Virus record (IMG/VR): IMGVR_UViG_3300028908_000017
Coordinates: 1 to 43,098 of that record
Direction: 5' to 3' (one strand)
DNA from: a virus
DNA length: 43,098 bases
The notes below the pieces were generated by a model. The model saw nothing but the letters and a program-made list of their open reading frames with translations, was not told where the DNA came from and did no database searches. A program made the translations under genes and the position numbers. How positions within the stretch are numbered: the stretch's first letter is position 1; every line of letters begins with the position of its first letter. Shown here piece after piece: positions 38,751 through 43,098 of this stretch.

Positions 38751-39473
38751 TTATTTAATTCCTGATGAGCCAAAACCACCTAATCCACGAGTCGTTGGGA
38801 ATATCTTATCAAAATACTTGAATAAACTCTTACTGAATGATTTCACCAAACTAACTTGGGACTCCATACCATAAACAAATGAGAAGCGCGCCTGTGCAAT
38901 GCGATCACCATCATATACAATAAACTCATTTTTCTTATCAGTATTCAATAAAATGGCGCCCACTTCATTGCGATAATTAAAATCTACGGTCCCCGGAGAA
39001 TTAACTAATGTGATACCTGCTTTATATGCGAGGCCGCTTCTTGGACGAATATCCAATGCCACAAATGTCGGCATAGATACTTTCAATCCTGTTGGAATTA
39101 GTTTTCTATCTCCTGCGTGAATAACTTCAAATTGTTCTTTTTCTTGCTTATCTTTTAATTCAATTCTGGCGCGGATATCAAACCAATAAGCAGTCAAAAG
39201 GCGCCTTCGCATAATGCTCGCATCCACATCATTATCATCAATTTCAATATATGTTTGATGTACATCATATTTCTTATCGGGGAAACACATAACAATAGTC
39301 CGTTCTGGTGCAATCACCATAATATCTTTGGTAGGCTGTAACTTATTGTGACAATCATAACAATAATATTCATCATGTTTGTCATCTATTGTATAAACTG
39401 GCGCATCACAACAAACACTAATCATGTTTCTTTGCGCGTGTTTTGTGTGCTTATCTTTACTTTCGTTACTCAT
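38751..39473 (-). CDS. dut: dUTPase with N-terminal zinc ribbon
   Basis: The trimeric dUTPase motifs are all present: AYWFDIRARIEL (I), RPRSGLAYKAGI (II), NSPGTVDFNYRNEVGAILLN (III), GDRIAQARF (IV) and TTRGLGGFGSSGIK (V, the C-terminal arm). It converts dUTP to dUMP and pyrophosphate. Unusually, residues about 20-45 carry a CC...CYDC cluster (VCCDAPV and YYCYDC) that looks like a zinc ribbon and is not part of the usual enzyme, and there is an extra segment of about 40 residues before motif I. At 240 residues it is about 90 longer than a standard enzyme. A candidate promoter lies directly upstream (39495-39524). Confidence 0.88.
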   Translation of the reverse strand: MSNESKDKHTKHAQRNMISVCCDAPVYTIDDKHDEYYCYDCHNKLQPTKDIMVIAPERTIVMCFPDKKYDVHQTYIEIDDNDVDASIMRRRLLTAYWFDIRARIELKDKQEKEQFEVIHAGDRKLIPTGLKVSMPTFVALDIRPRSGLAYKAGITLVNSPGTVDFNYRNEVGAILLNTDKKNEFIVYDGDRIAQARFSFVYGMESQVSLVKSFSKSLFKYFDKIFPTTRGLGGFGSSGIK

Positions 39474-41016: not shown

Positions 41017-43098
41017 TTAACTACATGCGGAATAGCCGCAATTCAAACATGTTTTACAACCACTCTCATTCCTGAGCGATGGCGCGCCGCACTCTGGACA
41101 AATTTCAAATTGACCAGACTGACCGGACTTGCCTTTATTCATAGTATTCATTTTGATGGATACCACATCTTTATCTGAAACGCCTTTTATGTGATTTCGA
41201 ATAATATGACCAATTCCAGCAATGATGGACCCAACATATTTGCCGGGCATCCAAAATCCTTCCCCATTCACGAAAGTATTCTCCATCTCATTCAATATAA
41301 AATCATAGTTGCGCTCCTTTCGGAACAATGCAGACAACAATCTAGAGATGAATGAATAGATTGGTTGTTGATTACTTCTGGTGTTAATGAATACTTCAAA
41401 TGGGCGGTGTTCATTACTAAAATCGTTTATTGTCACATAATAACTAAATTTATCGGATGGTGATTTGAGTTTATATGTTTTACCAGCCAGCACCGGCTCC
41501 CGTTTCAACTTCAAAGTAGGATCTGGTTGTTCTACTGGTGCCTGCTTTGGTGCTTCTTTCGGAGCGGGCGCTTCCAATACAGACTGAACTTTCTCATTTG
41601 GGCGATATGTCGTTACACCCTTAATACCTAACTTCCAAGCCTGCATATACACATCCTTAAAATCATCAAAACTATAATCAGATGGAACATTTATTGTTTT
41701 ACTCAAACTATTATCTACATAATATTGAATTATCGACATAACACTCAAGTGGTCTTGGATTGTTAAATTATTTGTATTTCTCCAATAATCTGGGGTTGGT
41801 GTATCGCCGAAGCGCGTTATCCATTCGAGATAGGCATAATCATACACCGTTTCTTCTCTTATTTCAGTATCCGTCTGTTTGATCTTTCTAACATACGAAT
41901 CTGAAAAAATAGGCTCCAGCCCGCTAGAAACATTATTAGCAAAAATGCTTCCAGTTCCGACCGGAGCCACAGTGAGGAGAAATGCGTTTCTAATGCCTGA
42001 TTTTAATATTCCTTCTTTAATATCATTTGGTAATCGTTTAACGAAGCGGCCTTCCACATATGCTTTCCTATGTTCTTGTTCAGATACAACAGGACAGGCG
42101 CCTTTCTCGACTGCCAAATCAACGGATGCACTATATGCTGTATCTCTAATTGCTTTCATAACCTTTTTCAAGAAATCTAATGTTTCCTGATGGTCGCCAT
42201 ATGGTAGTTTCATCATAACAAATGTATCAGCGAGCCCTGTTATTCCTAAACCAATGCGGCGCTCAGATTTGGATCTCTCCGCATATTTGTCTGTCGGGAA
42301 ATCAGTAACATCAATAACATCATCAAGAAAACGTACGGCGGTGGCCACATCTTGCTTTAAACCATCATAATCAAATTCCGGGTTGTCCCCAAACGCGCCA
42401 CGTACATACTGTGTCAAATTCATACTACCTAAATTACAAGCACCATTATACCCTAGGAATTGTTCACCACAACCACGCTGCACATATCCTTCAGTTACCC
42501 ATGTATCTGAATCTTCACAATATAAATCATAAACTGTAGCTTCCTTGTGTGGTTGAATGTTAATAATGGTCACAAATGATTCAGGAACTACATCATACAC
42601 GACATTTTGTATATAATCCTTAATTTTATCTTTATCTTCATGTTCAATAATTAATTTAGTCACCGACAATAAATTTGGACCATCCACCACTAAATTATAT
42701 TGCACATTAACAGATGCAAATGCACTATACTCTTGTTTAATTTCTGGAGTAATCCCAAAATATAAGAATATCAATCTAATATGGCGTAATATTTCGTAAG
42801 ACGCGCTTTCAATCTGTAAATAACTACTTATCAATTGTAATTTATTAATATATAAATCTCCATGCAATTGAATTAATTCATTCAATACCCCCAACATAAA
42901 ATCAACAGATTTGCCATATAACTTATCAATCACGGATGCATCAAATACGTTATTGGCAACAAAATCTTTTCCTTGTCGAAACTCATCCATATTTACATTA
43001 TTGAGCTTTCCATAATCAAATGATTTATTTTTGATTAATACATCATCTCCTGTACCTAATTGATCAACTCTAACATTCTTAATTGTATGGCGAAGTCT
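41017..43098 (-). CDS. nrdJ: Class II (adenosylcobalamin-dependent) ribonucleotide reductase NrdJ, C-terminal part preceded by an intein (partial at window end)
   Basis: The frame is open through base 43098, so the gene begins outside. From 42471 the reductase reads CGEQFLGYNGACNLGSMNL, the active-site Cys and the CNLGS block, then RRIGLGITGLADTFVMM, NVSSGLEPIFSDSYVRKI and WKLGIKGVTTYRPN, as in NrdJ proteins. The end CPECGAPS...CLNCGYSACS is the zinc-binding and redox cysteine tail. The C-terminal extein is 484 residues. It reduces ribonucleotides for phage DNA synthesis. The roughly 209 visible codons before the active-site Cys belong to an intein (42472-43098). The ATG at 42990 is internal to the intein and not a start. 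Confidence 0.88.
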   Translation of the reverse strand, partial: RLRHTIKNVRVDQLGTGDDVLIKNKSFDYGKLNNVNMDEFRQGKDFVANNVFDASVIDKLYGKSVDFMLGVLNELIQLHGDLYINKLQLISSYLQIESASYEILRHIRLIFLYFGITPEIKQEYSAFASVNVQYNLVVDGPNLLSVTKLIIEHEDKDKIKDYIQNVVYDVVPESFVTIINIQPHKEATVYDLYCEDSDTWVTEGYVQRGCGEQFLGYNGACNLGSMNLTQYVRGAFGDNPEFDYDGLKQDVATAVRFLDDVIDVTDFPTDKYAERSKSERRIGLGITGLADTFVMMKLPYGDHQETLDFLKKVMKAIRDTAYSASVDLAVEKGACPVVSEQEHRKAYVEGRFVKRLPNDIKEGILKSGIRNAFLLTVAPVGTGSIFANNVSSGLEPIFSDSYVRKIKQTDTEIREETVYDYAYLEWITRFGDTPTPDYWRNTNNLTIQDHLSVMSIIQYYVDNSLSKTINVPSDYSFDDFKDVYMQAWKLGIKGVTTYRPNEKVQSVLEAPAPKEAPKQAPVEQPDPTLKLKREPVLAGKTYKLKSPSDKFSYYVTINDFSNEHRPFEVFINTRSNQQPIYSFISRLLSALFRKERNYDFILNEMENTFVNGEGFWMPGKYVGSIIAGIGHIIRNHIKGVSDKDVVSIKMNTMNKGKSGQSGQFEICPECGAPSLRNESGCKTCLNCGYSACS
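42472..43098 (-). mobile_element. Intein in NrdJ (C-terminal ~209 residues visible), non-canonical C-terminus
   Basis: VYDLYCEDSDTWVTEGYVQ matches the intein block F pattern (VYDL.......FV..G.V.). Upstream, SVDFMLGVLNEL and YEILRHIRLIFLYFGI fit a LAGLIDADG endonuclease domain whose acidic motif residues seem lost. It sits exactly before the reductase active-site Cys, which would be the +1 residue. The last two residues are Arg-Gly, where nearly all inteins have His-Asn. Splicing by Asn cyclisation would thus be impossible as read. Confidence 0.72.

Follow-up and report, generated by a model that had tools for sequence, protein, structure and literature searches.

The reductase gene and its interrupting element

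The minus strand of the window, by which we mean the whole 43,098-nucleotide stretch of the virus record IMGVR_UViG_3300028908_000017, carries an open frame of 693 codons that runs from the contig end at 43098 to a stop at 41017. The downstream part of this frame, from the catalytic cysteine to the stop (41017..42471, minus strand), is the C-extein of a class II (NrdJ) ribonucleotide reductase, as indicated by matches to the ribonucleotide reductase barrel domain (PF02867, E 3e-57), the TSCPD domain and class II NrdJ models (E about 1e-80), and by alignment with NP/CGEQ reductases (the slash, here and below, precedes the catalytic cysteine). It displays the features by which this class is recognized, namely an NrdJ barrel, a catalytic cysteine in a CGE motif and a Cys-rich C-terminal end. 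The catalytic cysteine is encoded by TGT at 42471-42469 (minus strand) and also serves as the Cys+1 residue of an intein; the codons ahead of it, GTG CAG CGT GGT at 42483-42472 (minus strand), specify V-Q-R-G.

The 209 codons upstream of the cysteine continue the frame but do not encode reductase. They constitute the C-terminal 209 residues of the intein (42472..43098, minus strand), identified by alignment with inteins inserted at the same site and by G+C content, which is 27-33% here as against 38-40% in the reductase part, a drop that fits the expectation for an acquired element. That this upstream part is instead an unusual reductase was considered and rejected, since the reductase N-terminal motifs are absent and both Hint and LAGLIDADG segments align. 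The former include the conserved segment VRVDQLGTGDDVLI (43033..43074, minus strand), which follows block B in relatives and aligns with IRLDELNVGDYVQV of the intein designated L126. Blocks A and B of the window intein lie beyond the contig end, outside the sequence; a circular contig was likewise rejected, the opposite end of the window carrying an unrelated open frame and not the N-terminal half of the gene.

Block F/G, VYDLYCEDSDTWVTEGYVQRG (42472..42534, minus strand), places a glycine at the splice junction in a register common to 53 other same-site inteins. Within it lie an Asp-Thr-Trp triplet with the aspartate in the usual block F histidine place (42499..42507, minus strand), the glutamate of an E-G pair (42490..42492, minus strand) and the C-terminal Arg-Gly encoded by CGT GGT (42472..42477, minus strand). 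Roughly seventy uninterrupted relatives read TNP/CGEQ at this point, and the other NP/C-site inteins have Asn or Gln exactly five residues past the block F glycine, the place at which the window intein has Gly. The window ending GYVQRG/C aligns with GFVVHN/C of a Moorella phage, GHIAHN/C of Nodularia phages, GICVKN/C of a 735-kb phage, DIVTSQ/C of Bacteroides phage SJC03 and GFYVHN/C of Rhodobacterales, its glycine occupying the position where Asn, Gln or Asp would be expected. The claim of the first-pass annotation that the intein ends in Arg-Gly directly before the catalytic cysteine, on the codons CAG CGT GGT, is thus upheld in register with the same-site inteins.

The same annotation had described the nested endonuclease as decayed, which is also borne out: the motif 1 region of the window LAGLIDADG endonuclease is deleted, and the second motif, FMLGVLNELIQLHGDL (42853..42900, minus strand), has lost both its acidic residues, so that neither of the two acidic motifs of such an enzyme is left. 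This second motif is identified by a gapless alignment to FLRGFLDGLVSTDGNV of the sister intein L099 (core GVLNELIQLHG in the window against GFLDGLVSTDG in the sister) and by a weak PF14528 match.

Elsewhere, not far from the reductase, the window has a dUTPase-like gene (38751-39473) whose product bears a Cys motif resembling a zinc ribbon at its N-terminus. The region 4915-29303 marks the phage as a very diverged contractile-tailed one: its sheath, portal and terminase genes and two capsid-like ones match PHROGs only weakly. The terminase showed no intein on inspection. No near relatives of this phage emerged from megablast, its phosphoesterase gene or exact peptide patterns, and no nucleotide relative from among 50,697 phage records; one candidate contig, L013, was rejected as a false pattern match.

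Glycine-ended inteins in six phage lineages

Inteins with a terminal glycine occupy this site in five further diverged phage lineages: L099 (-HRG/C), L126 and its equivalent L132 (-YVQRG, i.e., -QRG/C), L128 (-YVSRG, i.e., -SRG/C), L130 (-IVSRG, likewise -SRG/C), and L136 and its equivalent L137 (-IVSQG, i.e., -SQG/C; L136:5001-6089). The first was found by scanning viral contigs for CGEQPLPP preceded by RRN-type codons, which recovered 32 reductases, 31 with an Asn end and only L099 with HRG; the remainder came from a motif scan with W[IV]xEGxVxRGC plus an alignment search. As the relatives were sought by motif, the proportion of 6 in 54 same-site inteins is not an estimate of frequency, and the six lineages, the only ones known, all reside on metagenomic contigs. 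The insertions show the general hallmarks of inteins, being in frame, at a conserved site and between intact flanks (the C-extein in the case of the window). In the five complete relatives Cys1 immediately follows NP, block B has its TxxH and both LAGLIDADG motifs are present and intact (L099, L126, L128, L130, L136), while the reductase flanks span nearly all of PF02867, the exteins keep the active-site motif and each gene is one uninterrupted frame. Tblastn against sequenced phages found no Gly-ended inteins; neither did a search of 398 Pseudomonadota genomes, in which the 19 distinct full-match loci that were read out end His-Asn or Gly-Gln.

Several other same-site inteins have unusual junctions. 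Two bacterial NrdJ inteins (L146, L147) came closest to the Gly-ended profile in those 398 genomes; they end Gly-Gln (GLVTGQ/CGEQ), the reverse of the order in the -SQG of L136. The 'hypothetical protein' SJC03_182 of Bacteroides phage SJC03 (L004) is an intein-bearing class II reductase with a Ser-Gln end, and four phage inteins (L118, L123, L124, L125) combine unusual penultimate residues (TGN, VSN, TSN) with an odd block F.

The final glycine is invariant across the six lineages, and arginine precedes it in five; L136 has Gln in this penultimate place, so that Gly is kept more strictly than Arg. Both are encoded by varying synonymous codons (CGT/CGT/AGA/AGA/CGC for Arg and GGT/GGT/GGA/GGA/GGG/GGG for Gly); four independent contigs have Arg-Gly, in differing codons, and a fifth has Gln-Gly. 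This recurrence bears on the prospect that the window ending is a sequencing or assembly error, for which one might cite its origin in a single metagenomic contig and its place near the contig end. The site is, however, 627 bases from that end, turning His-Asn into Arg-Gly takes at least three base changes, and the other frames there give no His-Asn; with the ending recurring in independent contigs, error is already refuted and its probability close to nil.

A comparison of 47 same-site inteins (6 Gly-ended and 41 Asn/Gln-ended) reveals that the glycine is part of a wider signature. The block F histidine place holds Asp in all six Gly-ended inteins, as against Asn in 20, His in 20 and Ser in 1 of the others; two residues further on, Trp is present in 6/6 versus 0/41; the position before the block F glycine is Glu in 6/6 versus 1/41; and the last residue is Gly in 6/6 versus Asn in 38 and Gln in 3. 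The N-terminal catalytic residues, on the other hand, are the same in both groups, with Cys1 and the block B Thr and His present in all five complete members, and an Asp occupies F:4 in all six. This pattern of residues suggests a chemistry that would be canonical in its N-terminal part and changed in its C-terminal part. Block F/G is also the best-kept part of the window intein: its last 22 residues match those of L126 at 19 positions, compared with 42 of 182 over the remainder (p 8e-9).

These alignments also permit an assessment of two further ways in which the ending might be accommodated. One would place the splice point two residues earlier, such that the third-last Gln or His cyclises and an Arg-Gly scar is left on the C-extein. 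Gln does cyclise in other inteins (PMC4031507) and is present at this position in the window and L126, but Ser takes its place in L128, L130 and L136, as does His in L099, and neither residue is known to cyclise so. Since, moreover, the spacing from block F to the junction fits a final Gly in every same-site intein and the scar would disrupt the N-P-C spacing of the active site, we regard this placement as improbable. The other, which we consider even less credible, is that translation initiates internally at the GTG at 42483, just before the junction, to make the C-terminal half separately. The sequence GAAGGATAT does lie upstream of this GTG in the window; its spacing is nevertheless short, whereas other window genes have strong Shine-Dalgarno sites 8-10 bases upstream, and the codon is not conserved, being GTA, GTA, GTT and GTC in relatives.

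Besides a new splicing chemistry and a reductase made as two pieces, the first-pass annotation had entertained a dead intein with another reductase serving the phage. In a reading of this kind the gene would be a pseudogene or dispensable, and Arg-Gly would have arisen by chance decay as a homing cycle closed. Inactive inteins do exist, e.g., Arth_1007 (PMC3196547), and the decay of the endonuclease, which is confined to the window, is compatible with a late stage of that cycle. The part of the argument that counts Arg-Gly as decay fails because the ending is shared by six diverged inteins, five of which have apparently intact endonucleases and complete reductase flanks. Arg and Gly have persisted despite synonymous codon change, the 693-codon frame is open with its reductase motifs intact, and neither the window record nor the five relatives' contigs, all of them fragments, yielded a second large subunit of the reductase. 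Further, with the endonuclease dead in the window, the intact block F/G becomes harder to explain as neglect. The shared Asp/Trp/Glu signature already largely refutes a dead intein, which we consider a poor prospect; the window intein is very probably not dead.

Phylogenetic analysis of the whole inteins unites the Gly-ended versions as one clade (support 100/100). Once the 26 C-terminal residues are removed, the window, which fills 48% of the columns and sits on a long branch, separates from the other five, while a grouping of all six as a single clade is not rejected (p-AU 0.435); the placement of the window in the clade derives mainly from the block F/G match to L126, along with the longer motif 2 common with L099. 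The C-exteins of the six carriers, however, do not form one clade (p-AU 7e-6). The element has therefore moved between distant reductases, and its carriers have survived.

In structural terms, an AlphaFold model of the L126 intein comprises a Hint domain and a LAGLIDADG endonuclease, with a mean pLDDT of 74 and values mostly of 80-95 in the splicing part. Its Hint part superimposes on the gp41-1 intein (Z 19.7; 1.3 A over 124 residues), with model residue 354 (the Gly) and gp41-1 residue 125 marking the end of the aligned stretch; the match to 1at0 has a Z of 17.7. Profile matches at E up to 0.1 link five of the six members to PF14890 and four of the six to PF13403. On this predicted structure, the Gly-ended inteins have the Hint fold.

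How the glycine-cysteine bond might be opened

In the inteins studied to date, mutation of the terminal Asn abolishes C-terminal cleavage, and only Asn, Gln, Asp and Glu are named as cyclising ends (PMC4031507). Cyclisation of Asn (or Gln/Asp) is the third step common to all three described intein classes; hence, a conserved lineage without it would imply either that this step can be replaced or that an essential active site can tolerate an intein that does not splice fully.

Building on the established sequence, register, conservation, predicted fold and lateral spread, we infer splicing and the following chemistry. The reading that we favor, at a probability of roughly 0.6, is that these proteins represent a conserved Gly-ended intein variant in which the N-terminal steps would be canonical, Asn cyclisation would be replaced and the reductase would still be joined. 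Judging from the intact residues, Cys1 would form a thioester, and the chain would then be transferred to Cys+1, which is also the catalytic cysteine of the reductase. The third step could not be Asn cyclisation, and the Gly-Cys+1 bond would have to be opened in another way. Hydrolysis might be assisted by the Asp found in place of the usual Asn-activating His, together with the nearby Glu; alternatively, Cys+1 itself might carry out an N-to-S acyl shift, favored by a Gly-Cys bond, with loss of the resulting thioester. Glycine would suit both routes, and the final S-to-N shift would proceed as usual. The retention of the C-terminal signature in the window, where the endonuclease is dead, accords with what one would expect were removal of the intein still required. 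A more specific proposal is that these phage inteins form a monophyletic clade, still mobile, whose splicing dispenses with any cyclising C-terminal residue. A new step would cut the Gly-Cys+1 bond, be it carboxylate-assisted hydrolysis by the block F/G Asp and Glu or a second N-to-S acyl shift by Cys+1; this proposal strikes us as about evenly poised between right and wrong.

The main rival to joining is cleavage without ligation, whereby Cys1 and Cys+1 would still release the N-extein while the Gly-Cys bond stays, yielding two associating chains, the second with an N-terminal intein. The N-terminal residues are intact, and loss of the Asn stalls splicing after the first steps (PMC4031507); further, phage Aeh1 has a fully functional NrdA in split form (PMC2988022), and the class II NrdJ of Thermus phage phiYS40 comes in two pieces (PMC3653736). 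Given that such two-piece phage reductases work, conservation is in itself no proof of ligation. However, a domain of 210-370 residues would then remain on the catalytic cysteine inside the barrel, the gene is one uninterrupted frame in all known relatives, and the Asp, Trp, Glu and Gly are strictly kept in six lineages, a signature that an abandoned junction would not need. We therefore regard cleavage alone as unlikely, albeit to be taken seriously, and prefer the variant that still joins the reductase. In practical terms, a Gly-ended intein would leave a plain C-terminus and may serve traceless cleavage.

Relationship to known Hint-fold systems

No description of Gly-ended inteins was found in the literature searched, the coverage of which was incomplete. 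Their closest counterparts are the class 1 inteins of the NP/C site, as in Moorella phage MTATph1, Nodularia phages and Alphaproteobacterial NrdJ, with which they share the site, the Hint fold, Cys1, TxxH, the Asp at F:4, Cys+1 and the nested LAGLIDADG endonuclease. They differ from these in having Gly for the C-terminal Asn, Asp for the block F His and Arg or Gln for the penultimate His. Thus, of the features that define class 1, the Cys/Ser1 and TxxH (in 5/5 complete members) and the Cys+1 are present, whereas the cyclising C-terminal residue is replaced by Gly in 6/6: the Gly-ended intein is a Hint-fold intein that departs from class 1 in one defining feature. Type B bacterial intein-like (BIL) domains are distinguished by the absence of block G and of a +1 nucleophile; here the block F/G spacing is conserved and Cys+1 is present. 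The Hedgehog autoprocessing domains have the Hint fold in common with them (the 1at0 match noted above), and in Hedgehog a Gly-Cys bond is activated by an N-to-S shift. That bond, however, lies at the N-terminal end of the Hint domain, and processing yields a cholesterol ester, in which respects the Gly-ended inteins differ.

A last residue other than Asn is also seen in the CIV RNR and Pab Pol II inteins, with Gln or Asp ends (PMC4031507), and in the Gln-ended same-site L004, L146 and L147. In these the junction is functional and the host is a reductase in several, but Gln and Asp can cyclise, whereas Gly, with no side chain, cannot. The NrdA-a/b of Aeh1 and the NrdJ-a/b of phiYS40 (PMC2988022, PMC3653736) are likewise phage reductases interrupted by, or after, insertion of a mobile element; there, however, the pieces are separate genes without an intein frame, in contrast to the one continuous frame of the window.

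Finally, class 2 and class 3 inteins provide a parallel as conserved lineages that have swapped one catalytic residue for another route, class 3 having arisen in phages. The Gly-ended inteins do not belong to class 3, which lacks Cys1 and has Cys at F:4, as they have Cys1 in 5/5 and Asp at F:4 in 6/6. Classes 2 and 3 alter only the N-terminal nucleophile (PMC4031507) and keep Asn cyclisation, and the Gly-ended clade shows the reverse. If a new third step is indeed used, this clade would constitute a fourth mechanistic class, one altered in the C-terminal half of the reaction and not in the N-terminal half.
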